This document shows positions 3,108 to 39,240 of a stretch of DNA of 39,882 bases, one piece after another (position 1 is the stretch's first letter; each line of letters starts with the position of its first letter). The notes under the pieces are model-generated. The model ran no database searches. It was not told where the DNA came from and worked only from the letters and a program-made list of their open reading frames with translations. The stretch lies in contig JAISYF010000173.1 in assembly GCA_031270065.1 (NCBI GenBank), forward strand, positions 1-39,882. The letters run 5' to 3'. Source of the stretch: Prevotellaceae bacterium (GTDB taxonomy: Bacteria > Bacteroidota > Bacteroidia > Bacteroidales > Paludibacteraceae). The position numbers were made by a program, and so were the translations under genes.

Positions 3108-3111
3108 CATT

Positions 3112-3204: not shown

Positions 3205-3235
3205 TCGGAAAATATACACTTTTTTATTTTATTTT

Positions 3236-3828: not shown

Positions 3829-3832
3829 AATT

Positions 3833-5083: not shown

Positions 5084-5103
5084 TAATTAAAATTTTTTTT
5101 TTG

Positions 5104-5142: not shown

Positions 5143-5204
5143 TTATTTTCAAAAAAATTAAATGCCCCCATTTTATACAAGGAGACCGCTTTTTTAAACG
5201 CGAC

Positions 5205-5280: not shown

Positions 5281-5322
5281 TTAACGCAAATTAAACATTT
5301 CATTTTTGTGTCCGCAAAAGTA

Positions 5323-5733: not shown

Positions 5734-5767
5734 AATTTTTTCTTGATTTTTATAGAATTAGCAAAAA

Positions 5768-6313
5768 TTAGTCTGTAACGATTTCAAAATCAATATCTAA
5801 AAATGCAGTCCAACCGAGATTACCAAAAAAAGTTTTTGGCTCAACGGGCATCAAGCGGGCAGGGAATTTCACCGAAAGGCAATCATCACAGCCATCGTTG
5901 TAGTCCTTTTGAATTTTCTGAACAATCTGCATCAGAATATTTTTGCAAACATTCGAGCGCAGCAGTTCCGACAGATTATCGTTGTTGCGCATTGCGTACT
6001 CTTGCGCAATGGTAACGGCGATTTTTTGAGTAAGCATCGGCGTATTTTCGGGATTATATTCCGCTTCGCCAAATTCAACAAACAAAAATAGTTCATTCGA
6101 GTTGCGGATATTGTCGGACACAAATTCTGAATTTGCTGAAAAAACAAATTTTTTAATTTCTGAAATTTGCGTATCTGCCTGATTATTAATTATTTCTGTA
6201 AAAATTTCGTTGTATGCCTCACGCCCATCTGCAACGGCAACCGCCGACTGTTGCAGCACTTCGGCAGGCACAAATTTTGAAAAATATTTGTAAAGTTGAA
6301 GTAAATTATCCAT
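5768..6313 (-). CDS. Hypothetical phage head-tail protein, 181 aa
   Basis: Soluble mixed alpha/beta protein. The N-terminal half is helical (MDNLLQLYKYFSKFVPAEVL), the middle contains FVFSANSEFVSDNIRNSNELFLFVEF, and the C-terminus is strand-rich (FFGNLGWTAFLDIDFEIVTD). This alternation, the size and the position downstream of portal and connector genes are typical of tail-completion or neck proteins, but no family is recognised. A pair of cysteines (GCDDCLSV) may bind metal or be incidental. Spacing to the upstream gene is 6 bases, so it is part of the portal operon. Confidence 0.6.
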   Translation of the reverse strand: MDNLLQLYKYFSKFVPAEVLQQSAVAVADGREAYNEIFTEIINNQADTQISEIKKFVFSANSEFVSDNIRNSNELFLFVEFGEAEYNPENTPMLTQKIAVTIAQEYAMRNNDNLSELLRSNVCKNILMQIVQKIQKDYNDGCDDCLSVKFPARLMPVEPKTFFGNLGWTAFLDIDFEIVTD

Positions 6314-6319
6314 AATTTT

Positions 6320-7213: not shown

Positions 7214-8139
7214 AATGCAAATGAGTGATTTTCGGTAATTTTTGACGGTTTAAACTGCTGCTCTGAAATATTTTCCTTTGCGAGTTCATCTTTTTTTTGC
7301 TCAATTTTTGCGTCGAGCGCAATCCAATAACTTTGCGCCTTTTGTTCAAAAATTTCCGCAACTTTTTCGCGGATATATGTGTCTGCCTGTGCGTTGTGAT
7401 TTTTGCCCATTTCGTTATTAATGTCAAGGCGAATCGGTTCAGGCAGGCAATAGTAGGCAAGTCGTTTGCAAACACGAGCAACAACTTCGTAGCACAGTGG
7501 GCGCATCGCATTGTCTTTTATTTCCTCAATTTTGTCGGCAGAAATTCGCGACAAAACACACTCTTCCCACACTTCTCTGATAATCCAACGTGCAAAGAGC
7601 ATAAAAGCATCGTCAGAAATTCCTACCCATTTTTTGAAATCAGAAATTGCAACAGGCAATTCATCCGCCTGTTTTTTTTGTTCAGAATTTTGCCAATCAG
7701 GAAAATTTTCGGCATTTTCATTCAAAAAAGCGATTAGGCGGTTTAGCCAAAACCACGCATCAGAAATCAATTTATTTTCGAGTTGGTCTTGCTGATATTT
7801 GAATATTGTGGTTTTGTCGTCAGATTTTTTGACTGTTATTCCATCGTTGCCGATGTTGGCAATAAGATAGATAACGTGCTGATACAGAGCAAAATGCAAC
7901 ATTGAACGTTGCAAATAGTCGAGTGCATGAGCATTAAGTTCTGCGGAATGTTCGCCTTCTGCTGCTGTTTTTTCAACGATTTTTTCATAAAGATTTTTTG
8001 AAAAAAAATCGTAAAACTCAACAGCGATTTTTGCCAAAGTGCTTTGCAAATTGTCAAATTCGAGTGTGAGATTATTTCCTGAAATTTTCGGTTTCATTTC
8101 TCTGGCAAATGTACTTTTTTCAAACGGAATTTTTATCAT
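7210..8139 (-). CDS. Probable head-tail connector/adaptor protein (DUF6712-like)
   Basis: A 309-aa, almost entirely helical, acidic protein directly behind the portal gene (12-base gap). The pattern of a long N-terminal helix region, a HFALYQHVIYLIANIG segment near 85-100, and the Trp-rich DAWFWLNRLIAFLNENAENFPDW stretch near 125-150 is what I recall from the DUF6712 family of Bacteroidota prophages, which sits next to portal genes and is presumed to be an adaptor. The final segment is Lys/Glu-rich and probably disordered. Position supports a connector role; the family call is from memory and moderate. Confidence 0.6.
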   Translation of the reverse strand: MIKIPFEKSTFAREMKPKISGNNLTLEFDNLQSTLAKIAVEFYDFFSKNLYEKIVEKTAAEGEHSAELNAHALDYLQRSMLHFALYQHVIYLIANIGNDGITVKKSDDKTTIFKYQQDQLENKLISDAWFWLNRLIAFLNENAENFPDWQNSEQKKQADELPVAISDFKKWVGISDDAFMLFARWIIREVWEECVLSRISADKIEEIKDNAMRPLCYEVVARVCKRLAYYCLPEPIRLDINNEMGKNHNAQADTYIREKVAEIFEQKAQSYWIALDAKIEQKKDELAKENISEQQFKPSKITENHSFAF

Positions 8140-8150
8140 AATTTTAAAAT

Positions 8151-9638
8151 TTAAACAGGATTTTGCGCGGTTAATCTATCGTTTGGCGAAATTTCCGACT
8201 GTTTTGACGGAATTTCTATATTGAAACCGAGCCGTATTCCTTCGGTTTTTGCTCGCGGAAAATTCATTTGAATGGCGCGGTTGATTTCTTTGCAAATAAA
8301 ATATTCAGGAAAAGAGAGAGTATTCAGATACACAATATAATTATAATAGACCTCACTGCCCGACTTTGATATTACGCCGTCTTTTTCCACATTGGTAATC
8401 GAAGAGTTGATACCAATACCTGCCAAAACCACCTCATCGGCACGACGGTCATATTTGAGAACGCTCTCGAAGTAATCTTTGAATTTGCTCGGAAATTCCT
8501 CGAACTCCCAACCCTCTTGTCCAATTTTCAAAGTGGCGTAGAGTTTGCCCTGATTTTTTCCTTCTCCACTCATTAATGTCGTAATTTTTTCAAGTTCAAG
8601 TTTGATTAACTCCAATATCATATTTTCGTTAAATCGAAATGCTTTGCCTTGTTCGTCAAGCAATTTTATACCCATAAACTCCGAAATCAGTTTGTCATTT
8701 GGACCCGCAGCGCAATTTTCATTGCACATTCTTTCGAGAATAGTTTTATTTTGACCGTACCAAGCCGCAGGAATTTTGCAGTGAATATGTGCGTTGAGTG
8801 CGTTTTTGAGGTACGAATTAAGATAGCGCGGCGTAAGATTGCTCGCCTTAATCCATTCGTAAAGCCCTGCAAACCAATCATTATAGGCATAAACCCATTT
8901 TCCAAAAGTTTTTTCAGAATTAAAAGCGATTGCTTCGGCTTTGCGCAAAGGCTCTTTTGGGTTGAAACGCGGATAAACCTGCATTTCGCGACCATTAGCA
9001 ACAAACCAATCGCCGACAATAACGTGGTCGCAATCTTGCTGTTTTATTCTTTCAAGCAAAATTTCTTTTGTTGTAGCCAAACGCGCTTCATCTGCGCCGA
9101 TGTAGGAGAGTGCGATAATGCTGTTTTGCTCGCCAAGCCGCCGAGCGCGGCGAAAATGATATTGCGACACGCAGGTTTTGACGTGATAATAGTCAGTTAT
9201 CAAACTGCGCAGATAGTCGCGATAGTCCTCGTATCCGCTTGTTTCCCAACTTTCAAGCCAATCGGAAATTGCGGCATCTTGCACCTGTATTCGCTCTCCG
9301 TTTTCGTTGTTTTTGTATAAAATTGGACCCTTTCCAAAAAGAAAATCAATCCTTTTTTGAATTATTCCAGGCATCAATTTATTGTCGGAAATAAGCGCGT
9401 GGACTTCTTGCGGATAAAGATTGTGCCGATTGCCCCAAAGAGGCACGTTATACTCTCCGATGCGCATTGACATATTTTCCGATGCGTAACGTTGATAGAT
9501 CTGTTGAAATTGTGAAACGCGCTTGTCTTCGCGCTCAAAATCAGCGTTGCCATCAATTTCAAAAGTAACCACGCCTGTTTTTACCACTGCAAAACCGTGA
9601 TTGCCCGAAAATTCTATTTGAAGTTCCTCTTTGGTCAT
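8151..9638 (-). CDS. Phage portal protein
   Basis: A 495-aa protein. Portals form the dodecameric ring through which DNA enters and leaves the capsid. Support: length, the early block LYPQEVHALISDNKLMPGII followed by QKRIDFLFGKGP (compare the NxxP...yLFGkP pattern of SPP1-like portals), a central helical stem region and a C-terminal helix-rich crown with MILELIKLELEKITTLMSGEGKNQG. No signal or transmembrane segment. It heads an operon with the connector, 297-aa and 181-aa genes. A capsid gene would be expected within a few genes; none is visible. Confidence 0.75.
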   Translation of the reverse strand: MTKEELQIEFSGNHGFAVVKTGVVTFEIDGNADFEREDKRVSQFQQIYQRYASENMSMRIGEYNVPLWGNRHNLYPQEVHALISDNKLMPGIIQKRIDFLFGKGPILYKNNENGERIQVQDAAISDWLESWETSGYEDYRDYLRSLITDYYHVKTCVSQYHFRRARRLGEQNSIIALSYIGADEARLATTKEILLERIKQQDCDHVIVGDWFVANGREMQVYPRFNPKEPLRKAEAIAFNSEKTFGKWVYAYNDWFAGLYEWIKASNLTPRYLNSYLKNALNAHIHCKIPAAWYGQNKTILERMCNENCAAGPNDKLISEFMGIKLLDEQGKAFRFNENMILELIKLELEKITTLMSGEGKNQGKLYATLKIGQEGWEFEEFPSKFKDYFESVLKYDRRADEVVLAGIGINSSITNVEKDGVISKSGSEVYYNYIVYLNTLSFPEYFICKEINRAIQMNFPRAKTEGIRLGFNIEIPSKQSEISPNDRLTAQNPV

Positions 9639-9658
9639 TTTTTTTTATTAAATTAAAA

Positions 9659-9779
9659 AACCTTTCGCAAGATAGGAGATGGCTATTTTCTTCGCAAGGA
9701 TTAATCCGCAGACCTTCAATTTCTTTTTCAAAGAGAAAAAGATATTTATAAGACTTCTACTCATATTCTGCGAAAGGTT
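9659..9779 (-). ncRNA. Structured intergenic RNA or terminator between the 104-aa and portal genes
   Basis: On the minus strand, AACCTTTCGCA (9779-9769) pairs with TGCGAAAGGTT (9669-9659), an 11-bp stem that closes about 100 bases and is followed by a T run, so it could act as a long-loop terminator. Inside are a TCTTTTTC/GAAAAAGA hairpin (about 9722-9741), the palindrome GGATTAATCC and a second TTGCGAAG that could compete for the stem. No ORF fits. It is the only gap above 50 bases within the portal/fibre gene run. Confidence 0.45.
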
Positions 9780-9785
9780 GTATTA

Positions 9786-10100
9786 CTATAATGTTGCCTC
9801 ATATTCCAGCACTGCGGCATTTTTGGTAAAAAATTCTTTTTCCGACTGCGACAGGCGATTGATTACGCCGTAAATTAGTGCAAATTCTTCGGCGGTAAAA
9901 TCCACTTCGCCGCCGTTTGCAACTTTGTTAGAGAGCGCGGTCAAAGTCTGCACCTCCGACAGATTGCGCGTGTGCTTGTTTGCAATTTCTTTTTCAACAA
10001 GCAATTTCAAAGGCACAATGCTGCCAACGGTTACAAGTTCGCCGTTTCTGATGTCGCGCCAGCCGTTGAGGACTTCTATATCTAAATTAATTTTATACAT
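9786..10100 (-). CDS. Hypothetical phage protein, 104 aa
   Basis: Begins with a strand-like MYKINLDIEVLNGWRDIRNG followed by TVGSIVPLKLLVEKEIANKHTRNLSEVQTLTALSNKVANGGEVDFTAEEFALIYGVIN and a helical end. The phrase VDFTAEEFALI resembles small Bacteroidota phage proteins of unknown role that accompany tail genes. Soluble, no motif of known function. Follows the glycosyltransferase gene by 21 bases and precedes the structured region at 9659-9779. Confidence 0.55.
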   Translation of the reverse strand: MYKINLDIEVLNGWRDIRNGELVTVGSIVPLKLLVEKEIANKHTRNLSEVQTLTALSNKVANGGEVDFTAEEFALIYGVINRLSQSEKEFFTKNAAVLEYEATL

Positions 10101-10121
10101 AATGATATTTTTTTAAAAGAT

Positions 10122-10727
10122 TTATAAAATAATTTTCGCAATATGTCCGCATTTTAATGACGGAATAACATATTTTTTAATTTCTTTGGCGTATTTTAAA
10201 AAGAAATAAATATCGCTTGAATTTCCGATTTGAGTTTGAAACGGCTCGGATTGCATATTAGTAAAAAAAACTTCGCTGTCGATTAAGCAACAGCCCATTG
10301 CTGCGGCTGCAACTTCCATCGGCGTTTCGTTTTGTACATCAAAAATTTTGATTTTATTTTCCTCTTTAAAATCCACATTTATCGGCAAACAGTGAGTCGT
10401 CAGATTTTTGATGTCTTTGCTAAAATACCACCCCGAAATAATTTTGATGTTTTTTGCTTCTGACTCAAAAATTACTTTTCGCAAAAAATTTGTCGGCAAA
10501 ATTGTATCGCTATCCACAAACAGCAACCAATCGTAATTTTCTTTTACGCATTTCTGCGCCGCGATGTTACGGCTGTGGTGGCACGAGTAATTACCAATCT
10601 TAAAGATGTCGCATTGGTACTTGTCTTTGTCCAAAGAATAGACGTTATCCTTAACAGCCTCGATTACGCGGGGGTCAATGTTATGGTCGTAATGCGGTAT
10701 ACAAATTAATATTTTTTTCATAGTCAT
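10122..10727 (-). CDS. Phage-encoded glycosyltransferase, GT-A fold (family 2-like)
   Basis: A 201-aa protein with the GT-A layout: N-terminal KKILICIPHYDH strand, a helix with SRNIAAQKCVKENYDWLLF, and the metal-binding DxD as VDSDTILP at about residue 70-77. Later GWYFSK and a conserved Cys-rich AAAAMGCCLID segment match the acceptor-site region of short GT2-like phage enzymes. It would transfer a sugar from a nucleotide-sugar, either to a virion fibre or to host surface glycans. It overlaps the fibre-like gene upstream by 4 bases, which favours modification of that fibre or of the receptor; this is inference. No transmembrane helix. Confidence 0.8.
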   Translation of the reverse strand: MTMKKILICIPHYDHNIDPRVIEAVKDNVYSLDKDKYQCDIFKIGNYSCHHSRNIAAQKCVKENYDWLLFVDSDTILPTNFLRKVIFESEAKNIKIISGWYFSKDIKNLTTHCLPINVDFKEENKIKIFDVQNETPMEVAAAAMGCCLIDSEVFFTNMQSEPFQTQIGNSSDIYFFLKYAKEIKKYVIPSLKCGHIAKIIL

Positions 10728-11542
10728 ATTACGTTAATATTTTTCAAAATGCCGCTGCCAGCACTATGGTTATCTATTATAACATCACGTATTGAAAGAG
10801 CAGTTATTTGGTTGAATATTCCTTGAATGTTGTCTATATTCGAGCCTGAAATAGTAGCGTTGTCTAAATTTCCCTCTATGAAACTTGCTCTGACACCGAA
10901 ATCAATTTTGCTGCCCGGAATATTGCCAGACAACCAACTTGCTTGAATGTAAGAAGATAGATATTGCGGGTTGGAAATATGATTATAAGGCACGTTGCCT
11001 ATCAATGAACCGAGAATGTCTAAGTCTGATAGTTTTGAGGCAGAAATCTTTGTATTTCCCTCGTTGATTGCATTGACTATATCTGCAACAGGAAGTTTGT
11101 CCACTGGAATTGTGCCGATGAGATTCCCCCAATTTAAAGTTAGTCCATTTGCATCAATTCCTAACATTTTCACACTATCGCTGCCGCGCAGCAGAGATAG
11201 GTCGCCGCTGGGATTAGAACGGATTATGGTCTTACCATCTCTGCGAATTTCCCAACCAGTTGCATCTGCCTCAATTCTATTCGCGCTTTTGTTGTAGTAT
11301 AAATAGGCACTCGAAGCATTCCAATTAAAACCAAGCGGCGAAGTGTTAGAATTAAATTCTATACTGCCTGTCATTGGCTCAGTAGTACCAGATAACGAAA
11401 GCATTAATGTTTGCAAAAGATTTTTAAGTTGCTCAATATCTGCATACATTGTTTTGCCGTCAAGATTTCTGCCGACAATAATTTTTTCATCAACAGAAAC
11501 ACTCTCGATTTTATTATAACTTTGCCAAAAAAGTTTTCCCAT
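10724..11542 (-). CDS. Fibre-like or baseplate protein with repeated beta segments
   Basis: A 272-aa protein rich in Asn, Ser, Gly and Ile. The first ~60 residues (FWQSYNKIESVSVDEKIIVGRNLDGKTMYADIEQLKNLLQTL) look like a virion-attachment domain. A TGSIEFNSNTSPLGFNWNAS segment and the LRGSDSVKMLGIDANGLTLNWG segment resemble trimeric fibre strands. The second half has irregular beta-solenoid-like repeats (IGTIPVDKLP, IGNVPYNHI, SGNIPGSKIDF, EGNLDNATISGSNI). No enzymatic motif. With the overlapping glycosyltransferase and the nearby tape measure it probably forms a host-contacting part of the tail. Confidence 0.65.
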   Translation of the reverse strand: MGKLFWQSYNKIESVSVDEKIIVGRNLDGKTMYADIEQLKNLLQTLMLSLSGTTEPMTGSIEFNSNTSPLGFNWNASSAYLYYNKSANRIEADATGWEIRRDGKTIIRSNPSGDLSLLRGSDSVKMLGIDANGLTLNWGNLIGTIPVDKLPVADIVNAINEGNTKISASKLSDLDILGSLIGNVPYNHISNPQYLSSYIQASWLSGNIPGSKIDFGVRASFIEGNLDNATISGSNIDNIQGIFNQITALSIRDVIIDNHSAGSGILKNINVI

Positions 11543-11561
11543 ATTTTTTATTTTTTATTTT

Positions 11562-11873
11562 TTATAAAAACCATTGTACTTTATTCCAAGTGTTGCCAAA
11601 ACGCGCTTGTCGTATAAGTTTTTTCCAACAAGTGCGCGGCTCGTTGGTGTCTAAATCTGTGAAAAAAAGGTAATGGTCGCTGTTTGTAGATGTGCCTTCG
11701 GCGCGTTTGGCAGCGCGAAGTCGGCAATTTTCATATTTGCGCAATTTGGCATTATTTGTGTATTCAGTTTTAAAATGCGTATGTGTAAAAAATATTATTC
11801 CAAAAGTTGCATTTTGCACTCCTTTTAGCAGCCGCATTTTTTCTATTGCCTGAGTTCCTGTGATAGTTTCCAT
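11562..11873 (-). CDS. Hypothetical phage protein, 103 aa
   Basis: The start chosen is METITGTQAIEKM at 11873; the frame is open upstream but that part runs over the promoter at 11893-11931. Basic protein containing FGIIFFTHTHFKTEYTNNAKLRKYENCRLRAAKRAE and the Trp-rich end CWKKLIRQARFGNTWNKVQWFL. I have seen short proteins with this LFFTDLDTNEPRTCWKK style in Bacteroidota prophages between tape measure and fibre genes, with no known function. It is the first gene behind its own prophage-type promoter, which also should drive the fibre and glycosyltransferase genes. Confidence 0.6.
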   Translation of the reverse strand: METITGTQAIEKMRLLKGVQNATFGIIFFTHTHFKTEYTNNAKLRKYENCRLRAAKRAEGTSTNSDHYLFFTDLDTNEPRTCWKKLIRQARFGNTWNKVQWFL

Positions 11874-11892
11874 TCTCTTTTTTTTTATTTTG

Positions 11893-11931
11893 CAAAAATA
11901 TAACAAAAAAATTTCTTTGCAAATGACAAAA
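11893..11931 (-). promoter_or_regulatory. Prophage promoter (TTTTGTCA box) for the fibre gene cluster
   Basis: Minus strand: TTTTGTCA (11931-11924), 23 bases, TATTTTTG (11900-11893). About 20 bases separate it from the ATG at 11873. Nearly the same sequence as the promoters at 5104-5142 and 16429-16467, including CATTTGCA after the box. Confidence 0.7.
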
Positions 11932-11944
11932 TAAATGAACACTA

Positions 11945-14900
11945 TTATTTTGAAGTAAAATTTTCTAACGTTTGAAAATCTCTATCAGCAGTTTTAAATT
12001 CATTCATATTGAAATCTAATTTCACTCCGTTCATTGCTTGCTGCATTGCTTTAATAAATTGCTCTTGCGACATTCCGCTTGCTTGCGGAGCGGCGTTTGG
12101 AGAACTGCCGACAAAACCGCCTGCCGCGTAACCTCCGCCGTAGTTGGATGGCAGAGAATTTCCGTGAGTGCGCTTGGTGCGCTCGGCATCAATGGCGCGT
12201 ATCATCGGCACGAGCGAAGGGTTGTGCATCTCTTCCTGTGCGATAACATACTCGCCTTTATGCACAGGTAAGCCGTCTGATGCTGTGCCTGCAACTTCGT
12301 ATTTTCCGCCGTTGCCTGTGTAGCCGCCGTCAGCGTAACCGCCGTTTTTAAATTCTTCTTTGAGTTGCACTGTGCCTGTTTTTGGCGGTGAAGTGTTGCC
12401 GCCTGTGCCGTCAAGCGTTTGGGCTTGAATTGCCTGATTTTGCTTTGACATTGTGGCAATTTGCAGTGCGGTAATTCCGCCGACAATTACAGCGGCAATT
12501 GCACCTGCAATGGGTCCAAGTTGGGCAAATGCAGTAATGATTGCCATTGCACCGCTGGCGATTGCCTGCATTATTTGAATTGCGAGGTTTGACTTTGCCT
12601 GTTTTTTCTTTAAATCAAGTTCCTTTTGCGCGTACTCTTTTTCTACGGCAGAGCGTTTGTCGGCATTGTCGCCCGCGAGCGCAAGTTGCTTGTTTTTTTC
12701 TACTTCCAGTGAGGCAGTTTCGAGTTCGTGCGCCTGCGTAACAGTTGCAGAGATTGCGCCAACCACTCCTTGCACAATGCTGCCAATGCCCATTGCCCAA
12801 TCTGTCCAAGATTTATTTTGATTGTTGCGCAATTGGTCGATAGCCGAAAAAGCAGTAGAAAAGGCATCGCGGAAAGAGTTTGCCAAGTCAGAGCCGAAGT
12901 CAATATCAGACAAGTATTCGGCAAGTTGACTGAGCGATTTTTTTGAGTTATCAATAAAATCAGTTGTGGCGCGTTCCGTTTTTTTGATAACTTCAACAAT
13001 TTTTGCGTGAATTTGTTCCAAAACAGCATCATCAATCGGTGCGCCGTTTTCAATCAATTTTTGAATTTCTGCGTACAAAAGTTGACGTGAGACAACAATC
13101 AATTCGTTGTAGCGTTTGTTGATTTCGTAACGCTGCTTTTCGTAATTTTTCTCGGTAATAATGCCTTGCTTTTTCTTTCTTTCGAGTTGATAGAGTTCTT
13201 CCTCGCGAGAGTTCTTAATAGTTTCTATTTGCGCATCGGTGCTTTTTTGCAGTTGTTTTACAGTTTCTTCGGCTGCTTTTTTTGTGGCATCAGATTTTTT
13301 CTTTGCCGAATCTGTGAGAAATTTGTTGAGTTCCTGTTCTTTGTCGATAATATTTTGCCGCGCAGTTTCGTACTCTTTTGATTCTTCGCCATGATATTTT
13401 TTTATAATTTGAAGTTGCGCATTAAACGATTCAATAGCAATTTTAAGCGATTCCTCTTTAATTTTTTCGTCATAATCTTTGCTGTTTTTCAACTCCTCTT
13501 TTTTATTGTTTAGTTTTTTGAGCGTAGCAGTTTTTTCGGCTTCGAGTTCGGCATTTTCCGCATCTTTGCGGGCTTTTTCTTTGGCTTTGATTTGTTTTTC
13601 TGTGAGTTCTTGGCGTTCTTTATTTTGTTTTTTCTGCTCTGCTACGACTACTGCTGTTTCTTCTTTTAAAGCATTTTCCTGAAATTTTTTGTAACCTTCA
13701 ATGTATTCCTTTTGTTCGTCAATATTTTTTTGCGCATCTGAAATAATAGTAGAATTAACATCTCTGTATTGCGATTTAGCCATATCTTTTTCATTATCAA
13801 TGATCCTTTGCTGCGTTTGAATGTATCCCTCTGCATTTTCAATCCGACTTGCATAATAATCAGAAGTGCCAAGTCTTTTAACTTGCGCCTCTTGTTTTTC
13901 AAGTTCTATAATAACTTCCTGCGATTTTTTTTCAAAAAATGAAATCGAATTTGTCAAAGATTTGTATTCAGAATTCAATTTTTCAATTTGTTTATTACTT
14001 AAACCACCTTTTGCAAGTTCGTTTTCAATTTCCAACTGTCTTTCAAGCGATTTTGTAATAGCATCTGAAATTGCCTGCTGTTTTGCGACATTCCGCATTT
14101 TCTCAATTTTAATCTGGTATTGATAATTCACATCTTCTAACGCCGTTTTCAAAAGTTCGTTTGAAATTTTTTCATCACCAATATTTTTTAAAAAATTGGG
14201 AAACTCTTCATTGAGCCGCTTTATCAAACTTTCACGCAATTTTTCATTGTCATTTGTTTCTATAATCGCTTTTACAAGTCCATTCAAACGGTTTTTTTCT
14301 TCCATAATGGATGCGGATTTCTCTTTTTCGAGTTCGACTGTGCGCTCCTGTACGCTGTTTCGGATTTTTTCGGCTTCGGTGGCTTCGTTTGCCGTTTTTA
14401 TATATTTTAACAATGCAGCAATAGCAGCAATAATGAGAGTGGCAATCAAAATGAAAATATTTTTTTTCATTGTTGCATTTAGTTTTGACTGTGCAACATC
14501 GGCGGCATCGGTAGCGACTTTTTGTGCAAAAAGCGATTTTATTGCAGCACCAATACTTTTTATGTAATTTCCGAGAAAAGTAATAAGTGATTTTAGCCCT
14601 GTAACGCCTTGCGCATTTGCGACATTTACTAATTTTCTAACGCCGAGATAAATGCCGAGAAGTTTTATCGCTGTTCCAATCAAAGCCAAATTTCGAGTAA
14701 TCCAACCAACCAATGAAGTCAGCATATCAACTGCGATTTTCATAAATCCTTTACTGTCGTAAAAACTCAACATCAAACCCTCCCACGCTGATGAAAGCAG
14801 TTGTACGCTGCCCTGCACAGTATTGAGTTTAGTTTTCTGCATATTTTCCATTTCCTCGCCTACATCTGTAATGCTGTCTTTTAATATTGTGATGCTTTCG

Positions 14901-16114
14901 GCATTTGTCAAAAAAGTATTGAAGGCAGCAACAGAGCGTTTGTCGGTAAGTTCGAGGGTTTCATTCAGCGAAATTCCTTTGTTTTCGAGTTCCTGCAACG
15001 CAGGCGCAAGTTCATCAAGCGAAGTAATCGGTTTGCCAAGCGCAACAGCAAGTTTGCCGTTGGAGTCGGCGAGATTTAACAAAATATTTCGCGTTGCCGT
15101 TGCCGCGCTGCTTGCATCAAAACCCGCATTTGCAAGCGTTCCGAGCAACGCCGTTGTTTCTTCTATCGAAAATCCGAATGCGTTGGCAACGGGTCCAACT
15201 GTACTCATTGCATTTTCCAAAAAACTGAAATTGAGAGCCGATTTTGTAGTTGCAACAGCCATTGCAGAAACGTATCTTTGTGTTTCTTCTGTATTTGCAC
15301 CAAACATTCGCAACGCCGCGCCTGCCAATGCCGCCGCTTGCGGTAAGTTCGCGCCTGTGGCTGTGGAAAATTGCAAAACATATTGTGTCATATTTTTTAT
15401 ATCCTCCTGTCCGTAGCCGAGTTTTGCGAGTTCGGTTTGCAGTTGCGTAACCTGAGAGGCGGTGTATTCTGTGCTTTCGCCAAGCCGTTTGGCATCGGCG
15501 GTAAGTTCTTTTACGCCGTCTTGTGTAGTGCCAAGAACGGCGGCGAGGTTGGCGTTGGCATATTCAAAATCGGTAATTTTAGAAATGGCGGATTTTATGG
15601 AAGAAATAAGAAAATCTAAACTTTTAGTATAAATATCGCCAAAAAAAGCTCCCCAAGCCATTTGCCACTTTTTTAATGCTTGCGTGTCTTGAAATACGCT
15701 ATTTAATTTTGAAATGCGTTGATGCGTTTGGGAAATTTGGTCGCTTAATTCTTTCCAACGTTTTGGTTCGAGGGTTTTATTTACATTATTCTGTTCTTGC
15801 CTTAATTCTTTTAACCTTTTTGATAATTGCCCCGTCGTCAAAAACTGTAATCCCATTGATTTTTCCAAATCATGAATTTTAGTGTTATAATTACTAACGG
15901 TTTGATTATTTACTTTTATTTGCGCGGAAAGATTTTTATACTCAGAGGTATTTCCTTTGCCTTGCTTTGCAAGTTCGGTAAGTTCTGTGCGCAATTTACG
16001 ATTTTCCAAAGTAATCGTATTGATTGATTTCTGATAGTCATTAATTGCTTTTTGACTTTCAGATGCCTGTTTAAAACCAAGTTCTAATAATATTTTGTCG
16101 TTTGAAACTGCCAT
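11945..16114 (-). CDS. Phage tail tape measure protein
   Basis: 1389 aa, the largest protein here. Tape measures set tail length and help DNA passage. Layout: coiled-coil N-terminus (about 1-160, ELGFKQASESQKAINDYQKS onward); a TP901-type core (about 165-470) with ADAKRLGESTEYTASQVTQLQTEL and GAALRMFGANTEETQRYVSAMA; hydrophobic segments near 480-510 and 560-590 (IFILIATLIIAAIAALLKY); a long Lys/Glu coiled coil (about 600-1120); a second hydrophobic block near 1200-1250 (GAMAIITAFAQLGPIAGAIAAVIVGG); and a Gly-rich end with the FKNGGYADGGYTGNGGKYEVAG motif typical of tape-measure C-termini. A functional tape measure implies a long-tailed phage (siphovirus or myovirus). A promoter of the prophage type lies at 16141-16179. 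Confidence 0.93.
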   Translation of the reverse strand: MAVSNDKILLELGFKQASESQKAINDYQKSINTITLENRKLRTELTELAKQGKGNTSEYKNLSAQIKVNNQTVSNYNTKIHDLEKSMGLQFLTTGQLSKRLKELRQEQNNVNKTLEPKRWKELSDQISQTHQRISKLNSVFQDTQALKKWQMAWGAFFGDIYTKSLDFLISSIKSAISKITDFEYANANLAAVLGTTQDGVKELTADAKRLGESTEYTASQVTQLQTELAKLGYGQEDIKNMTQYVLQFSTATGANLPQAAALAGAALRMFGANTEETQRYVSAMAVATTKSALNFSFLENAMSTVGPVANAFGFSIEETTALLGTLANAGFDASSAATATRNILLNLADSNGKLAVALGKPITSLDELAPALQELENKGISLNETLELTDKRSVAAFNTFLTNAESITILKDSITDVGEEMENMQKTKLNTVQGSVQLLSSAWEGLMLSFYDSKGFMKIAVDMLTSLVGWITRNLALIGTAIKLLGIYLGVRKLVNVANAQGVTGLKSLITFLGNYIKSIGAAIKSLFAQKVATDAADVAQSKLNATMKKNIFILIATLIIAAIAALLKYIKTANEATEAEKIRNSVQERTVELEKEKSASIMEEKNRLNGLVKAIIETNDNEKLRESLIKRLNEEFPNFLKNIGDEKISNELLKTALEDVNYQYQIKIEKMRNVAKQQAISDAITKSLERQLEIENELAKGGLSNKQIEKLNSEYKSLTNSISFFEKKSQEVIIELEKQEAQVKRLGTSDYYASRIENAEGYIQTQQRIIDNEKDMAKSQYRDVNSTIISDAQKNIDEQKEYIEGYKKFQENALKEETAVVVAEQKKQNKERQELTEKQIKAKEKARKDAENAELEAEKTATLKKLNNKKEELKNSKDYDEKIKEESLKIAIESFNAQLQIIKKYHGEESKEYETARQNIIDKEQELNKFLTDSAKKKSDATKKAAEETVKQLQKSTDAQIETIKNSREEELYQLERKKKQGIITEKNYEKQRYEINKRYNELIVVSRQLLYAEIQKLIENGAPIDDAVLEQIHAKIVEVIKKTERATTDFIDNSKKSLSQLAEYLSDIDFGSDLANSFRDAFSTAFSAIDQLRNNQNKSWTDWAMGIGSIVQGVVGAISATVTQAHELETASLEVEKNKQLALAGDNADKRSAVEKEYAQKELDLKKKQAKSNLAIQIMQAIASGAMAIITAFAQLGPIAGAIAAVIVGGITALQIATMSKQNQAIQAQTLDGTGGNTSPPKTGTVQLKEEFKNGGYADGGYTGNGGKYEVAGTASDGLPVHKGEYVIAQEEMHNPSLVPMIRAIDAERTKRTHGNSLPSNYGGGYAAGGFVGSSPNAAPQASGMSQEQFIKAMQQAMNGVKLDFNMNEFKTADRDFQTLENFTSK

Positions 16115-28397: not shown

Positions 28398-29960
28398 ATG
28401 GCGCGTTTTATTGCAGAAAATAAAGACAATTTCAAAAAGAAAGGTATTACAAAAGATATTATCACGCAGGTAATTAATACCTTTAAAAAGGACTATTTGC
28501 AATGTGTAGACGTTGCAAAGGAACTGCAAGGCAAAAGTAATATTGAGACTTATGAAAATATATTTAATTACGTTCTTAAACATGTTGAATATGTAGCAGA
28601 CCCGCAAGGCGTGCAATGGATTAAAACCCCCGCGCGACTGATTACAGACGGCAAAGGCGATTGTAAAAGTATGGCAATTTTTATCGCAAGTTGTTTGCGC
28701 TGTCTGGGAATAGATGCTTATTTTCGGTTTGTGTCCTTTGGCAAAAGCAAAACGCCTACACACGTCTATATTGTAACTTACGACAATATAATAATAGACC
28801 CTGTGGAGCGCGTAAATGGACAACCAAAATTCAACTATGCACAAGAATATAATACTAAAATAGAGATAATGAATACTACAAATATATATGAATTAAGAGG
28901 GATTGGCAGTAATGAAACGACAACGATTGATTACACACCCTACACTGGCGCAAAGAGTTTTTTAGAGAATTCTATTGCCGAGAATTATTTGTGTAGCGAA
29001 ATTGATTATCTTACAACGCTTTTAACCATAGAGCCGACAGCCGAGAATTTTAATCAGTGCGATGCAATGGCACTTTCATTATATTTATTACAAAATGGTT
29101 ACGATAACGAGAAAGGCGGTTTGATTTTGCAAAAAATGAAAGACGAAGGACATTTTAATTATTTGAGTATCAACGAGAAAGAGCGCGTGGTACATTTAGA
29201 TAAATTGTTTGAAACAGCAAGAAATGTTGATATTTTAGATTTTAAAATTGGCGCAGATACAGAAGTTGCTATTTGGTATAATGATATTTTGAAACAAAAT
29301 GTAATTGAAGGGCGGAACCAAGAGGGAATTGAAGAATATGAAAAATTAGTTGGTGAAAATAAAATTGGAATTACAACAAAGCAAAAAAATGAATTAATCG
29401 CAAAAATGAAAGAGTCAGGTTGGGGCTTTTGTTACATTTTGGCTAATCCGATGTGGATTGTTAAGCAGTCGGAGAAATACCCGGAAATGCAACGTAAATT
29501 ACAAAATGAAAATGGATTGTTCATGCAATGGTACACGTCCTTAACAAAATATTTTACACAGCAAACAATATTGAATTATTTAAAGGATGGATTTATAAAG
29601 CAGACAAATCAGACGCCCGAGAATTACATTTTAGCGGGTATTAAAAAGGGAGAATTACCCTCTGCCCCAAATATTGGTATAGCAGCATCTGTTGTAGCCG
29701 CAATTATAGCAGCGGTAGCAGCGGTAGTAACAACTGTCTTAAATATGATTATTGCATTAATTCAAAAATCAATGCAAAGTCCGACCAACTACCCAAACGA
29801 TATTCCACCGAACAATGATGATTATTTAAGTGCCGAAGATTTAAAAGGTGATAGTGGTAGCGGAAGCGGAACAACAGACGAAAAGAAGAGCAGTTTATTA
29901 CCTATTTTATTAATTGGAGGTTTAATTTTTTTAACAAAAAATAATGAGTACGAAAGATAA
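28398..29960 (+). CDS. Transglutaminase-fold enzyme with C-terminal membrane anchor
   Basis: 520 aa. Residues about 50-140 are a transglutaminase-like (papain-like) domain: Cys89 in DGKGDCKSMAIFIASCL, His122 in TPTHVYIVTY and Asp134 in IIIDPVERV form the expected catalytic triad. Such enzymes cut or cross-link peptides. The middle (150-420) is helical. Two membrane-type segments follow: about 425-460 (IGIAASVVAAIIAAVAAVVTTVLNMIIAL) and the extreme C-terminus LLPILLIGGLIFLTKNNEYER. A linker of Gly/Ser (GDSGSGSGTTDEKK) precedes the last one. The next gene overlaps by 17 bases. Possible roles: maturation protease of virion proteins, or wall-peptide cleavage during entry. Not seen in normal tailed phages in this form. 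Confidence 0.75.
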   Translation: MARFIAENKDNFKKKGITKDIITQVINTFKKDYLQCVDVAKELQGKSNIETYENIFNYVLKHVEYVADPQGVQWIKTPARLITDGKGDCKSMAIFIASCLRCLGIDAYFRFVSFGKSKTPTHVYIVTYDNIIIDPVERVNGQPKFNYAQEYNTKIEIMNTTNIYELRGIGSNETTTIDYTPYTGAKSFLENSIAENYLCSEIDYLTTLLTIEPTAENFNQCDAMALSLYLLQNGYDNEKGGLILQKMKDEGHFNYLSINEKERVVHLDKLFETARNVDILDFKIGADTEVAIWYNDILKQNVIEGRNQEGIEEYEKLVGENKIGITTKQKNELIAKMKESGWGFCYILANPMWIVKQSEKYPEMQRKLQNENGLFMQWYTSLTKYFTQQTILNYLKDGFIKQTNQTPENYILAGIKKGELPSAPNIGIAASVVAAIIAAVAAVVTTVLNMIIALIQKSMQSPTNYPNDIPPNNDDYLSAEDLKGDSGSGSGTTDEKKSSLLPILLIGGLIFLTKNNEYER

Positions 29961-31464: not shown

Positions 31465-32214
31465 ATGAATGTAATTAATAATTCACCCTCGTATGAGGTA
31501 AGAAAGAAAATATTCAGCGTATTGTCTGAATGGGGCAAGCAGAACGATTGTGTGCCACAAGAAAGTTATTTGCGTCTATCTAAACCGTTGCAAAATGGAG
31601 TTGGACACTACACTTTTGACCCGTCTGTAAAGGCGATTGTACAGGGCGATAAATCGTTGTCCGAAGGCGATGTATTTTTCGGGTTAGGAAATATTGTTGG
31701 TTTGATGCTCGACACAGACCCTGTTCGCACAGGTGCAGCACCAATTCTCACATACCCATTGCTTGTAAGTGCAGCAAGTCGTGGTTTTATTGCCGAAGAT
31801 ATTTTCCGTTTGTATTATGGTATTCTCACGAGGAGAACTGTACAAACACAACTTAATGAAGGTTTTCCAGTTGCAAAATTCCGCGTTACGCCGGAAACAC
31901 AACCAACCTTTATTATAGATGCAGATGGAGTTTCTCACTCTTTGGGATTGCAGCCTGAGTACGATTACGAACGTGCTATTAATTGGTTTGCTATCAATTT
32001 CGTAATGAACGGAAAAGACAGCAATATGATTGAACTTGACTTTAACGGCACCGATGCAAACTTTGCCGTTGCCGAAGCAGACCAAACAACTGTAAGTACC
32101 ACACACAAACCTTATCTTGTGTATGAAGAGTTTGGCTTCCTGATGAAAGGAGCAGCAAATGCAGATGTGAAGAATTCTCTTGAATCATTTATTGCTGCAC
32201 GTCTTAAATGGTAG
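31465..32214 (+). CDS. Major virion (capsid) protein candidate, 249 aa
   Basis: Soluble, no membrane segment, no enzyme motif, even composition. Contains SVKAIVQGDKSLSEGDVFFGLGNIVGLML, then LSHSLGLQPEYDYERAINWFAINFVMNGKDSNMIELDFNGTDANFAV, alternating strands and short helices. Codons are more regular than in the neighbours, and a stable hairpin right after the stop (32244-32269) could boost this message or limit read-through, as is common for capsid genes. Size is near PM2 P2 (about 269 aa). I could not see a double or single jelly-roll with certainty, so the assignment rests on context. Confidence 0.45.
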   Translation: MNVINNSPSYEVRKKIFSVLSEWGKQNDCVPQESYLRLSKPLQNGVGHYTFDPSVKAIVQGDKSLSEGDVFFGLGNIVGLMLDTDPVRTGAAPILTYPLLVSAASRGFIAEDIFRLYYGILTRRTVQTQLNEGFPVAKFRVTPETQPTFIIDADGVSHSLGLQPEYDYERAINWFAINFVMNGKDSNMIELDFNGTDANFAVAEADQTTVSTTHKPYLVYEEFGFLMKGAANADVKNSLESFIAARLKW

Positions 32215-32243: not shown

Positions 32244-32269
32244 CTTGGTGCCGTTGGGTCGGCACCAAG
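32244..32269 (+). terminator. Stable hairpin after the capsid candidate
   Basis: CTTGGTGCCG (32244-32253), loop TTGGGT, CGGCACCAAG (32260-32269): a perfect 10-bp GC-rich stem. Only a short T run (GTTTC) follows, so partial termination or 3'-end protection of the upstream message is more likely than full termination. It lies in the only gap (88 bases) of the otherwise gapless second half of the operon. Confidence 0.75.
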
Positions 32270-32302
32270 TTTCAAAAATTACAAGATGTAATAAAAAAAA
32301 TT

Positions 32303-33010
32303 ATGGCAAAAATTGTTGAAAATATAGACTTAATCAGAATTCATTTAGATAATGCAGGCAATTATTATTTGTCTGAAAATGTGAATTTTAAAGACAAGAA
32401 TATTTTGTTTTTTGGATTTTGTTTTGGTACAAATTCAACAATCGATTTAACAACAGGTACCATTTTGTTGGAAAAACCAGAATGTAAAGGAATTTTTTTA
32501 ACTCTACAAAACGAAAAAAAAACTGTTGTAAAAAATTTTGCGGTACAAAATTTAGACGTGCAAATGTATTCTGTACAAGCACCAATCAACCGCGTTTTAG
32601 ACCTTAAAAACTGTTATGTTTCAATAAATAATACTTTTCAAAATAAGATACTTTTAATGTACGTTTTCTATGGGAAATTAACCGAACACTCTTCCGAATG
32701 GGGTGTTAATTTCCCTATTAACGTACCCGCAAATTACAGAGGTACATTACAGCAGATAGTCGGGGACGTGAGAAATTTTGTTACTCTAAAATGGATTTCG
32801 GTAGAGGAGGGGACAAATGCCTTTTTAACTTTTAGAGCAAAAAACAAAGAGAATTGCTTGGAATATTTGAATACAAAAATTTTCCAAGCAAATATAGATG
32901 ATGAAATTATTGTAAAAAATGATTGGTTATTGAATTTTGAAGATGTAAATTGGGACAATTCCGAAGTAATAACAGATTCAAACGAATTAAAATTAAATCT
33001 TTATTTTTAA
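32303..33010 (+). CDS. All-beta protein, paralog 1 of a tandem pair
   Basis: 235 aa from MAKIVENIDLIRIHL (an upstream in-frame ATG at 32180 would overlap the capsid candidate and read through the hairpin, so it is rejected). Strand-rich: ILFFGFCFGTNSTIDLTTGTILLEKP, KNCYVSINNTFQNKILLMYVFYGKL, ending NELKLNLYF. The central part aligns with the next protein: FLTLQN-K...NFAVQNLDVQ...INRVLDLKNCYV against FLNLTENGQK...LNYPLDRINIKN...KLDINRKINFADCYI. Two sister beta proteins next to a capsid candidate suggest vertex, penton or minor capsid subunits. No family named. Confidence 0.6.
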   Translation: MAKIVENIDLIRIHLDNAGNYYLSENVNFKDKNILFFGFCFGTNSTIDLTTGTILLEKPECKGIFLTLQNEKKTVVKNFAVQNLDVQMYSVQAPINRVLDLKNCYVSINNTFQNKILLMYVFYGKLTEHSSEWGVNFPINVPANYRGTLQQIVGDVRNFVTLKWISVEEGTNAFLTFRAKNKENCLEYLNTKIFQANIDDEIIVKNDWLLNFEDVNWDNSEVITDSNELKLNLYF

Positions 33011-33015
33011 AAAGC

Positions 33016-33789
33016 ATGTATAAAAAATTGACTTTAAAATATGGTAAATCAATAGAAATAGACCTTGCAGGACAAGTTAAGGTATATTTTCCCGCCCTTT
33101 TAGAATTGGCAGGAAAGAATGTAATTTCTATTGATTTTATGCAAGATATTACAAATTTTTCTGGCGCGGAACAGCCAACAGATTTTTCCGATTTATTTTT
33201 AAATTTGACCGAAAACGGACAAAAATATTTCACTTTGAATTACCCTCTTGATAGAATTAACATCAAAAATACACGCGGTCTAAAGCTTGATATAAACCGC
33301 AAAATCAACTTTGCAGACTGTTATATTTATAATCCGACTGTGCAAACAGGCAGTATCACATTTGTGGTATGGTGGAGCGAACAGGCGACAAAAGAACAAC
33401 AGGCTACTTTATCTGTTTTTGATAATGTAGAATTGATTTTAAAACAGGGCAACGGTTACAATAACCTTTTCCCCGATTACAAGACGTTTGTAGGTTATTC
33501 GGTGAAAAACATTATTTTACCTGACGTTTTGATTTCACCAAGCAGTGTGGATATTGTTAGCGCAATAACGCTAAATGCTGCATATCTTACTTTGCAAAAA
33601 GGTACAAAAATTGTTTTTGACCAAATGCCACTAATTGCTTTGCAGCAAGAATTAATGTACGAACATCTAACTTTTGACAAATTGGAATTTGATTTTAACA
33701 ATTCATTTATACAAATTGCGAAAAATTTAGATGTTTCTGCAGACTTAAATAAAAGAATTTTACTCACATTTGAATTTGAAGACAAATGA
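33016..33789 (+). CDS. All-beta protein, paralog 2 of a tandem pair
   Basis: 257 aa from MYKKLTLKYGKSIEIDL, 6 bases after paralog 1. Strands such as VYFPALLELAGKNVISIDFM, NFADCYIYNPTVQTGSITFVVWWSEQ and the end RILLTFEFEDK match the pattern of paralog 1 (DCYIYN with NCYVSIN; TFEF with LNLYF). Its middle (VISPSSVDIVSAITLNAAYLTLQKGTKIVFDQMPL) has no counterpart motif of known function. Its stop overlaps the next start (ATGA). The likely role is a second capsid, penton or spike-base subunit. Confidence 0.6.
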   Translation: MYKKLTLKYGKSIEIDLAGQVKVYFPALLELAGKNVISIDFMQDITNFSGAEQPTDFSDLFLNLTENGQKYFTLNYPLDRINIKNTRGLKLDINRKINFADCYIYNPTVQTGSITFVVWWSEQATKEQQATLSVFDNVELILKQGNGYNNLFPDYKTFVGYSVKNIILPDVLISPSSVDIVSAITLNAAYLTLQKGTKIVFDQMPLIALQQELMYEHLTFDKLEFDFNNSFIQIAKNLDVSADLNKRILLTFEFEDK

Positions 33790-36461: not shown

Positions 36462-37874
36462 ATGAATATCATACAAAGTAATATAGCGGGTGCGAATCAA
36501 AGGTATTTGACTATTTATGATGCAAACAAAGATTTTGCGCTAAAAACAGATATTCCGATAATACCGGAGTCAATAGTTATTGATGCGTACAATATGTTTG
36601 ATTGGGAAAGTACAACTGAAAATTTTGTTTCGGCACTATTTTACAACACTAAGGACCCGATTATAAAATTATGCGTAAATAATGAAAGTGAGGATTCACT
36701 TGTAATTACAGCGGAATTAGGTTTTGGGGCTAAAGTAGGCAGCGTAAATAACGTTGTTTTCGATGCCGATGGAGTAGCACAGATTGTAGAAATTACACCC
36801 GAAATAGGGCAGACGCAAACAACTATCACTATACCTGCTGCCTGCAAAGGCGAAATATTTTATGGTTGCGATGTAACTGAAAATAACTTTGGCAAGTCAT
36901 ACATCATTGCCAATCAGGGGGAAGGCGGGACTATAATAGTGAAATTAGTTGCTTCTGACTTTGCGAAGTTCTTTAACTTTGGCGACGAAAGTACTGTTAT
37001 CGTTTTTGAGAATATTTCTGTTGCCAAGTCCGCAGTAACAAGTATTGTAATTAACGATGATATTATACCCGCAGCATTGGCGGATGGCGTAAACACGACG
37101 ATTAGCGAACGTTTTATAACAAATTTTATAAATTGTACTTTTGTAGATTTTTACGGATTGCGAAATGTTACTTATTTTGGCAACGGATCTTTTGCAAGCA
37201 TTGCAGCAAATAATCCCGCAACTTATTTTACGAATGTTATAAAAGTCGGATTTAGTTTCTTCTCAGAATTTAGAGGAACTCAATTTGATTTGACGCCATT
37301 TTCTAACTTGCAAGAAGCAGATTTATATTTCATTTCAAATTGGAATAATGTTTTAGAATTAGATTTGAGTAAGTTAGTAAAGTTAGGAGGAAGCTTTCAA
37401 ATGTTTCTTGAAAACCTTCCGCAATTACAATCGAATGTTTCTTTAGATTTTCTTGATAACGAAATGACTACTGGATTTAATCTGGTTTCTTGTCTATCGC
37501 GTCTCTATTCTGTCAAACGTATTGACGTATCTAAATTGGCAACTATTGATTTGGATAAATTTATACATGGATATTATTGGAACGATAGAATTGCCTTTGC
37601 TGCAAATTCGTTAGAAGAATTTGTAATTGGCGATTACATAATTCCGCAGAGTCAGCCTGTATCGACAGGAACTTTGCAGCGTACATTAGCTGTGCAAGAA
37701 TATTCACCCGCAGCAATTAACGGCATAACCATCACAGGAACGAGGGCTGCCGTAGGTAGACTGATAGAAGTAATTGGAGACCAAACTCCCTACCATTACA
37801 ACGGTTATCCTTCTTTTGAATATAATTTTGTTTGGAATTTAATCTCAAATTATACAGACGTGAATAATGACTAA
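36462..37874 (+). CDS. Spike or receptor-binding protein candidate with LRR-like region, 470 aa
   Basis: Largest non-enzymatic protein of the cluster. Residues about 1-220 are beta-rich (SIVIDAYNMFDWES, LVITAELGFGAKVG, TTITIPAACKGEIFYGCDVTENN). Residues about 225-400 show irregular leucine-rich repeat text of the BspA kind (FYGLRNVTYFGNGSF, SNLQEADLYFISNWNNVLELDLSKLVKLGGSF, LPQLQSNVSLDF, YSVKRIDVSKLATIDLDKF, LEEFVIGDYIIP). LRR and BspA-like domains bind surface ligands. Directly upstream of the wall-degrading enzyme, with overlapping stop and start. Role in host attachment is inferred. No signal peptide. Confidence 0.6.
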   Translation: MNIIQSNIAGANQRYLTIYDANKDFALKTDIPIIPESIVIDAYNMFDWESTTENFVSALFYNTKDPIIKLCVNNESEDSLVITAELGFGAKVGSVNNVVFDADGVAQIVEITPEIGQTQTTITIPAACKGEIFYGCDVTENNFGKSYIIANQGEGGTIIVKLVASDFAKFFNFGDESTVIVFENISVAKSAVTSIVINDDIIPAALADGVNTTISERFITNFINCTFVDFYGLRNVTYFGNGSFASIAANNPATYFTNVIKVGFSFFSEFRGTQFDLTPFSNLQEADLYFISNWNNVLELDLSKLVKLGGSFQMFLENLPQLQSNVSLDFLDNEMTTGFNLVSCLSRLYSVKRIDVSKLATIDLDKFIHGYYWNDRIAFAANSLEEFVIGDYIIPQSQPVSTGTLQRTLAVQEYSPAAINGITITGTRAAVGRLIEVIGDQTPYHYNGYPSFEYNFVWNLISNYTDVNND

Positions 37875-38531
37875 ACAGCAATTCATATCTACCTATTGGC
37901 AACACGCTGTTGCTTGTCAGACTGCATACGGGTTGCCGTTAGCGGTTATTTTGGCACAGGCGGGGCTTGAGAGTGGTTGGGGTGCTTCTGTTTATCAAAA
38001 TAATTTTTTTGGCATAAAGGCAAATAGTGCGTGGAAAGGCAAGAAGCAACTTTTGCGAACACACGAAATGTTGCCAAAGAGTAGCGGGTATTCGTTCCCG
38101 GAAGTGATTAGCATAACACCCACAAGCACAGGTAAGTATGATTGGTATGTACGTGATTATTTTCGGGCTTACGACACAGCGGAAGAGGGTTTTATGGATT
38201 ATGGAGCATTTATAACGGGTAACTCAAGATATAACAATGCGGTTATAAATTACAAAAACACAGGCAACTGGCAGGCGTATTGCAGAGATATTGCGGCAGC
38301 GGGGTACGCAACGGCTACAAACTATGCGAACAGTTTAATTAGCACAACCGAACAGGTAATAAATTATCTGCCTCTTGATTGGCAACAAGTAAAGGCAAAT
38401 TCGGCAAAAAAAAAAACTTCGCTGGTGGTTCAGAATTTTTAATAATTGGAATTTTAGCAGGATTATATTTTTTAAATAATAAAAACAAAAACAATTTTGA
38501 TTGTATGATAAAAAATTATATTAAAAATTAA
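37867..38531 (+). CDS. N-acetylglucosaminidase (PF01832 type) with frameshift-encoded membrane anchor
   Basis: The zero frame ends at 38442 and gives 191 aa: a glucosaminidase domain with catalytic Glu35 in LAQAGLESGWGASVYQNNFFGIKA and later GYSFPEV...DYFRAYDTAEEGFMDYGAFI, the FlgJ/AcmA type that cleaves the glycan strands of peptidoglycan. At 38406-38416 there are eleven A. Moving into the -1 frame there gives NFAGGSEFLIIGILAGLYFLNNKNKNN and a stop at 38529-38531, about 221 aa in all, with the same Gly-centred anchor as neighbouring proteins. Slippage (ribosomal on A-AAA-AAA, or by polymerase) would yield soluble and anchored forms. A base-call error in the A run is the alternative. Confidence 0.85.
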
Positions 38532-38549: not shown

Positions 38550-38903
38550 ATGGAAATTCAAACAATTATTTCAGCAATCATAGGGCTGTTAGCCTTAATT
38601 GCAACAGGTGGATGGTTTATTAATTATCGTCAAAAAAAAACTATCGAAAGCGCAAGTGCCGACAATGCTACTTTATCGGCTTCAAAAAATGCCGTTGATT
38701 TAGCCAATGAGATAGCACAGAAATACAACACTATTATTTTATCTTCAATGGGGGAGCACGAGAAACGCCACGATGATGTGGAAAGTAAACTTGATGTATT
38801 ATTGTATGAGGTTACAATTATTGGTAAATATCTAAATGGCGGGTTGGCAAAGTTCAAAAAACAGCAGCGTGATGAACGTGGGCGTTTCATTAAAAAAAAA
38901 TGA
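38550..38903 (+). CDS. Small membrane protein with coiled coil, holin/spanin-like
   Basis: 117 aa. An N-terminal membrane helix (about 4-26, IQTIISAIIGLLALIATGGWFIN), then a helical, charged region (ADNATLSASKNAVDLANEIAQKY; VESKLDVLLYEVTIIGKYL) and a very basic end RDERGRFIKKK. This one-helix plus coiled-coil layout and its place just behind the wall hydrolase suit an inner-membrane lysis protein. No named family. Confidence 0.65.
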   Translation: MEIQTIISAIIGLLALIATGGWFINYRQKKTIESASADNATLSASKNAVDLANEIAQKYNTIILSSMGEHEKRHDDVESKLDVLLYEVTIIGKYLNGGLAKFKKQQRDERGRFIKKK

Positions 38904-38910
38904 AAAAATT

Positions 38911-39240
38911 ATGAAATATGCAATTTATATATTATCTGTTTTATTGCTAATCTGCTGTATTTCAATCGGTTTCTTGTGGAAAATGTACAGTAAAACGGCA
39001 GCGCATACACAGGCGCAACAGGTGCAAATTTTGGAACTCGATAGCGCACTTCAAAAGGCACTAAACAAGACCGAAACGTCAATAAAATTTAGCATACAGC
39101 CGACAATAACCAACAAGGTTACTTCTGCTTTTGGAAGTACAAAAAATGTAACATTGCAATATTATTTCACTTTGGACGGTAAGGCGATGATAGTAAAGGC
39201 AGATAGCACTTATCAAATAACAAAAGAGTATGCGAAATGA
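38911..39240 (+). CDS. Small membrane protein, possible inner-membrane spanin
   Basis: 109 aa from MKYAIYILSVLLLICCISIGFLWKMY; the frame is open upstream inside the previous gene but the Met at 38911 is the natural start. One N-terminal membrane helix, then QQVQILELDSALQKALNKTE (helical) and a beta-rich end (TNKVTSAFGSTKNVTLQYYFTLDGKAMIVKAD). Similar small proteins occur at the end of lysis cassettes of Bacteroidota phages (I recall DUF6549-like ones). Last rightward gene, followed by a terminator at 39361. Confidence 0.6.
   Translation: MKYAIYILSVLLLICCISIGFLWKMYSKTAAHTQAQQVQILELDSALQKALNKTETSIKFSIQPTITNKVTSAFGSTKNVTLQYYFTLDGKAMIVKADSTYQITKEYAK

Follow-up and report, generated by a model that had tools for sequence, protein, structure and literature searches.

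In Citrobacter rodentium, the secretion gene tssM1 carries a run of 11 adenines (A11; other runs are written likewise) just 5′ of its zero-frame stop, and this run has been proved to slip: products derived from cDNA had 10 to 15 A, and the longer protein made up 20–25%, without stimulatory signals (PMC4256274). Slippage there supplies the missing C-terminal part, and both of the two length variants are needed; A11 is rare among tssM genes (PMC4256274). Polymerase slippage also adds an A in the editing of the Ebola virus glycoprotein, which changes a soluble product into a membrane-anchored one (PMC5009743), and in Thermus thermophilus dnaX a run of nine A, the length examined in bacteria for its tendency to slip, yields a long and a short form of the protein through slippage (PMC1088944). 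Two wall hydrolases of membrane-containing phages are comparable on the protein side: PRD1 P15, a virion-associated muramidase used in lysis too, for which a review does not report a slippage-derived pair of forms (PMC6356626), and FLiP gp14, an SLT-type enzyme of a membrane-containing Bacteroidota phage that is annotated as virion structural and lytic. The latter has a C-terminal hydrophobic segment in frame and no A-run, and one form is expected. In the open-access literature we found no paper that linked slippage or programmed frameshifting to a dual-form phage lytic enzyme.

Here we analyzed a 39,882-nt stretch of DNA from a Prevotellaceae bacterium (termed the window; contig C14 of genome G000), in which a peptidoglycan hydrolase gene ends in a related manner. 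The zero-frame ORF (37867–38442, plus strand, as are all features of this element given below) encodes a soluble glucosaminidase of 191 aa that matches the PF01832 profile with E=2.6e-25 (89.9 bits vs. a Pfam gathering cut-off of 30.2) and ends in KANSAKKKTSLVVQNF. Around its A11 run (38406–38416), which forms the junction between enzyme and anchor, the zero-frame codons read GCA AAA AAA AAA ACT TCG CTG GTG GTT CAG AAT TTT TAA, so that the frame closes at 38440–38442, 8 codons past the end of the run. The −1 frame, read from 38409, gives K-K-N-FAGGSEFLIIGILAGLYFLNNKNKNNFDCMIKNYIKN and then a stop. This tail, KKNFAGGSEFLIIGILAGLYFLNNKNKNNFDCMIKNYIKN (38409–38531), comprises an AGGS linker (38421–38432), a hydrophobic anchor, FLIIGILAGLYFL (38436–38474; Kyte-Doolittle 15-residue maximum of 1.98), a Lys/Asn-rich end and a TAA stop (38529–38531). 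No ATG precedes the anchor in this frame, and the sole start codon 5′ of it is a TTG at 38379, within the enzyme coding sequence. A preliminary description of the window had reported the run, a GGS-type linker and a −1 frame open through FAGGSEFLIIGILAGLYFLNN, all of which were confirmed upon re-reading.

We consider it very probable that slippage at the A11 run is programmed and gives a soluble and a membrane-anchored enzyme, a reading inferred from sequence in the absence of RNA, read or peptide data and with the products themselves not observed. Unshifted reading would end a few codons past the run and yield the peptidoglycan hydrolase in soluble form. Should one A be added in transcription (or the ribosome move back one base), translation would go on in the −1 frame through a linker and a single membrane-spanning segment to a short tail, polar or basic, leaving the same enzyme anchored in the membrane by its C-terminus. 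Production of both forms is most likely but inferred, neither a product nor mRNA heterogeneity having been observed. The arrangement would share with tssM1 the position of A11 just before the zero-frame stop, the supply of a C-terminal part by slippage and the lack of stimulatory RNA signals; it differs in being conserved in a virus family and in what is added, a membrane anchor for a wall hydrolase. With Ebola virus it would share the passage from soluble to anchored by an added A, though an RNA virus, a viral polymerase and an unrelated protein are involved there, compared to a bacterial DNA virus and probably the host polymerase here. T. thermophilus dnaX differs in encoding a cellular DNA polymerase subunit, with no localization switch.

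Related elements were collected using the transglutaminase-like gene of the window element (28398–29960) as a marker, which turned up in 19 of the 358 genomes sampled from the family, in 31 of the 393 from the order and in 45 of the 395 from the class (thresholds 1e-8, 1e-15 and 1e-15, respectively), or 5–11% of sampled Bacteroidota genomes. Following this search, 60 further stretches were examined. A scan of 4481 ORFs (159 loci) for a homopolymer close to the ORF end, together with a hydrophobic stretch that continues in a different frame, brought out four further elements of this design (G024, G165, G175 and G506), and reading of hydrolase gene ends added G118 and G173. In total, 26 elements had a hydrolase ascertained by homology, blind to the run, and three more elements with a run were obtained via run scanning; an additional A9 case (L263) was left out because its contig ends at the run. 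Searches beyond this set were less productive. IMG/VR contained no close relatives of the window gene when the protein alone or two-sequence alignments served as query, and a pattern of the exact junction in which the run length was left variable had no match there. The more distant endolysin loci retrieved (80) were mostly tailed-phage enzymes without run or anchor, and their −1 hydrophobic stretches were excluded from the evidence since none has an A9 run. Among elements lacking A9, screening for shift motifs of other kinds gave mostly overlapping genes with their own ATG. The window's genome also holds a second element of the family (L127; contig C47, 10439–19878, minus strand), with homologues of the transglutaminase-like gene and of the window gene at 38550–38903 and apparently no recognizable glucosaminidase or SLT enzyme.

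A run of A9–A11 occupies the enzyme/anchor junction in 22 of the 26 elements with a homology-ascertained hydrolase. Elsewhere on the coding sense strand of these elements, runs of at least nine A occur at 5.8e-5 per base (0.0035, or 0.35%, per 60 nt), and the binomial chance of 22/26 is 1e-50 if elements are treated as independent. This is only roughly true (L276 and L287 are near relatives), and our conclusion does not hang on the figure. Counting all 25 elements with a run (the window and 24 related ones), run length is always 9–11; the anchor lies out of frame in 22 of these, the window included, and in frame in three. Where out of frame, it is in the −1 frame in 22/22 cases and in the +1 frame in none (two-sided chance 5e-7), and this relation holds for A9, A10 and A11 alike; the fourteen −1 elements added after the marker search have A9 (L246, L250, L257, L261, L264, L268, L271, L277, L278 and L290) or A10 (L241, L276, L287 and L291). 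The relative from the same genus as the window (G086, Prevotellaceae bacterium Hs463_bin52) carries a homologous element whose glucosaminidase is 56% identical and ends GAT GTA AAA AAA AAA GCG TAA (A10), with the −1 frame continuing into KKSVMKAGGGIGWIALTAFALLYFGDKLFND. The two tails show no close sequence likeness, only the common plan, in which a linker rich in glycine is followed by one hydrophobic segment and then by a short polar end. Conservation of both frames and of the A-run in homologous elements, which the preliminary description had named as a check, was thereby met by G086 and by 20 others with A9–A11, all −1.

Furthermore, the −1 tails of the 22 elements behave as a coding extension conserved among homologues. 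Stops fall within the tails in 0/22 cases for the −1 frame, compared to 22/22 for the zero frame and 20/22 for the +1 frame; zero-frame tails vary, yet end shortly after the run in most elements. When tails were compared pairwise (231 pairs), the anchor frame scored highest in 85%, and between L246 and L257 there are 7, 1 and 13 differences at the first, second and third codon positions of the −1 frame, respectively. The earlier proposal of a programmed −1 shift that adds a membrane anchor to the glucosaminidase is thus supported by the conserved run, the −1 relation and the anchor in the shifted frame. Against it, where the junction is rich in lysine and the genome in AT, codon choice by itself can produce A9 fairly readily: in a synonymous-codon Monte Carlo simulation that kept the conserved lysines, the chance of A9 was P 0.1–0.76 per gene. 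We did not use this simulation as proof, given that some cases were ascertained by the run, and relied on the homology-ascertained count instead. Conservation of the junction lysines would in that event itself need explaining.

The hydrolases at the junction span three unrelated families, namely glucosaminidase (PF01832), SLT transglycosylase (PF01464) and GH108 (PF05838, in L291), and no Pfam family matched the enzymes of L241 or L277. Different enzyme classes carry similar tails, VGIS-containing ones being found both in G165 (a glucosaminidase) and in G118, G173 and G175 (SLT), from which we infer that junction and anchor were apparently kept while the enzyme domain was swapped. Five elements (G024, G165, G118, G175 and G173) encode two tandem wall hydrolases (glucosaminidase with glucosaminidase, glucosaminidase with SLT, or SLT with SLT), with the run and anchor on the second only.

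Some members of the family depart from this arrangement. L141 (A10), L147 (A10) and L240 (A11) have their run at the enzyme/anchor junction too, but here the zero frame itself encodes the anchor, and a stop follows within 8 codons in either shifted frame; slippage there would therefore yield the soluble form, in parallel to T. thermophilus dnaX, whose long form is read in frame and whose other frames stop early. G099 and the IMG/VR element L118 have the anchor in frame and no A-run. L144 and L145 (G013) likewise lack an A-run, and the 3′ ends of their SLT genes carry T9 within or close to the hydrophobic segment, where slippage would alter the end of the anchor. These four elements without an A-run suggest that some lineages may be able to do without the soluble form.

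RNA-polymerase slippage is favored as the main route on three grounds: runs are at least 9 long, they occur in every codon phase, and no common or unusually stable RNA structure lies downstream; the route is inferred from these sequence features, and how efficiently the Bacteroidota polymerase slips at A9–A11 has not been shown. The homopolymer of at least about nine A/T within coding sequence that marks transcriptional slippage genes is present in the window (A11). The alternative with most standing is −1 frameshifting by the ribosome at A_AAA_AAA or A_AAA_AAG on an ordinary transcript, which would give the same two products. It is still possible, as the heptamer A_AAA_AAA is present in frame in every run, so that the X_XXY_YYZ feature of dnaX-type −1 cassettes is met whatever the phase; four of five phase-2 A9 cases end in A_AAA_AAG, and −1, the direction seen in all cases, is the natural one for ribosomal slippery sites. 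We nevertheless regard it as unlikely to be the main explanation. A run of 7 would do for phase-2 sites (13/25), yet lengths of 7 or 8 were never seen, and runs occupy all codon phases. The stimulatory stem-loop 3′ of the run that characterizes dnaX-type cassettes was not found at the 25 sites: downstream structure was not in excess (mean z of −0.28; window z of −0.44) and none was shared, although pseudoknots were not modeled. Retention of A10–A11 in the three elements with the anchor in frame also fits a slippage site better, without excluding the ribosome.

Two further explanations are each very improbable. Under DNA-level phase variation, mutation of the run length would toggle the gene between free and anchored forms in different cells, as might be expected of hypermutable A9–A11 tracts. 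A mix of in-frame, −1 and +1 anchors is predicted in this case, compared to the 3, 22 and 0 seen, and compensation to −1 is found for each of the alleles A9, A10 and A11. Alternatively, the anchor could be a separate small holin-like membrane protein, made by independent or coupled initiation and never fused to the enzyme. G086 has TAATG at its zero-frame stop, which would permit re-initiation, and G506, L277 and L291 have an ATG 12–20 nt past the first A of the run. However, 9 of the 22 −1 stretches contain no ATG, GTG or TTG anywhere, so that only a change of frame can express the anchor in these, and the window has none before its anchor except the TTG inside the enzyme; the segment is moreover fused in frame in the relatives FLiP, G099, L118, L141, L147 and L240. 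Lastly, a sequencing or assembly error, or a decayed gene, in place of one continuous frame with the anchor can be dismissed almost entirely despite error-prone homopolymers and genomes that are mostly metagenome bins: the same direction recurs in 22 elements of different genomes where errors would give both, A9, A10 and A11 are all compensated to −1 with zero-frame tails closing early in most, and two −1 cases lie in single-contig genomes (G024, 3.16 Mb; G852, the source of L277, 5.08 Mb), so that, as judged from the assemblies, the A-run arrangement is not a sequencing error.

For programmed slippage, the role of the two forms depends on the nature of the element, which is probably an integrated, tailless, membrane-containing virus of Bacteroidota, as judged largely from modeled structure and with no particles seen. 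The putative major capsid protein (31465–32214) has no match among phage sequences; its model (pLDDT 83) resembles jelly-roll capsid proteins, with the best VIA Z of 7.4 to SPV1 and Z of 5–7 to SH1, HHIV-2, P23-77 VP16, PRD1 P3 and FLiP, a moderate likeness at the level of fold only. The transglutaminase-like protein, which has its own C-terminal hydrophobic segment, weakly matches the structural protein gp34 of Salisaeta icosahedral phage 1 (SSIP-1; 27% over 73 aa, E 4e-5). Two tandem paralogous proteins (32264–33010 and 32950–33789) are conserved in the elements, and a PDB sequence search with these and the capsid protein gave nothing significant. The P-loop motif G....GK[ST], sought as a sign of a packaging ATPase, is absent from the ORFs of the element (24–39 kb; motif search only). 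Downstream of the hydrolase, a small protein with an N-terminal membrane segment (38550–38903) is 63% identical in the same-genus relative and weakly matches Rz-like spanins. FLiP gp14 is 42% identical to the G506 enzyme and ends in a tail of the same type; by its annotation it is, like PRD1 P15, a wall hydrolase of a membrane phage with a place in the virion and in lysis. Based on the capsid resemblance, the SSIP-1 gp34 match and these two enzymes, we infer by analogy that the anchored form most likely sits in the virion inner membrane and opens the wall at entry. The free form would be available for host lysis, this division of labor being likewise an inference.

Several other features of these sequences were recorded. 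A separate −1 extension near the capsid gene is short and not hydrophobic, and is perhaps a leader feature of that gene. In L244 and L250, ~2.07–2.09 kb 3′ of the transglutaminase domain, an A9/A10 run closes the long transglutaminase ORF, from which the −1 frame continues for 64 aa as a small protein rich in lysine, possibly a second slippage fusion in the family; in G118 the transglutaminase-like gene is split across two frames (L038, 289–813 and 875–1915) by error, decay or a shift. The 38550–38903 gene ends in A9 (38890–38920; GRFIKKK, then the stop), and its end overlaps the start region of the next membrane protein in another frame. Elsewhere in the window (1763–16114, minus strand), ORFs judged by eye only resemble a separate tailed prophage, with a methyltransferase, a portal-like protein and a 1389-aa tape-measure-like protein.

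Gene callers will annotate enzymes of this kind without their anchor, and RNA-polymerase slippage in Bacteroidota becomes directly testable with these junctions. For bacteria, programmed slippage has been described in scattered genes and in IS elements, whereas here it is apparently a conserved rule of a virus family. We think it somewhat more probable than otherwise that an abundant, largely undescribed lineage of tailless Bacteroidota viruses uses transcriptional slippage to set the ratio in which one hydrolase is allotted to lysis and to the virion membrane, with a junction that outlives enzyme swaps and is reversed in some lineages, where a slip would release the enzyme. If true, this would be a one-gene answer to a phage's need for both a particle-borne wall-cutting enzyme and one released for lysis.
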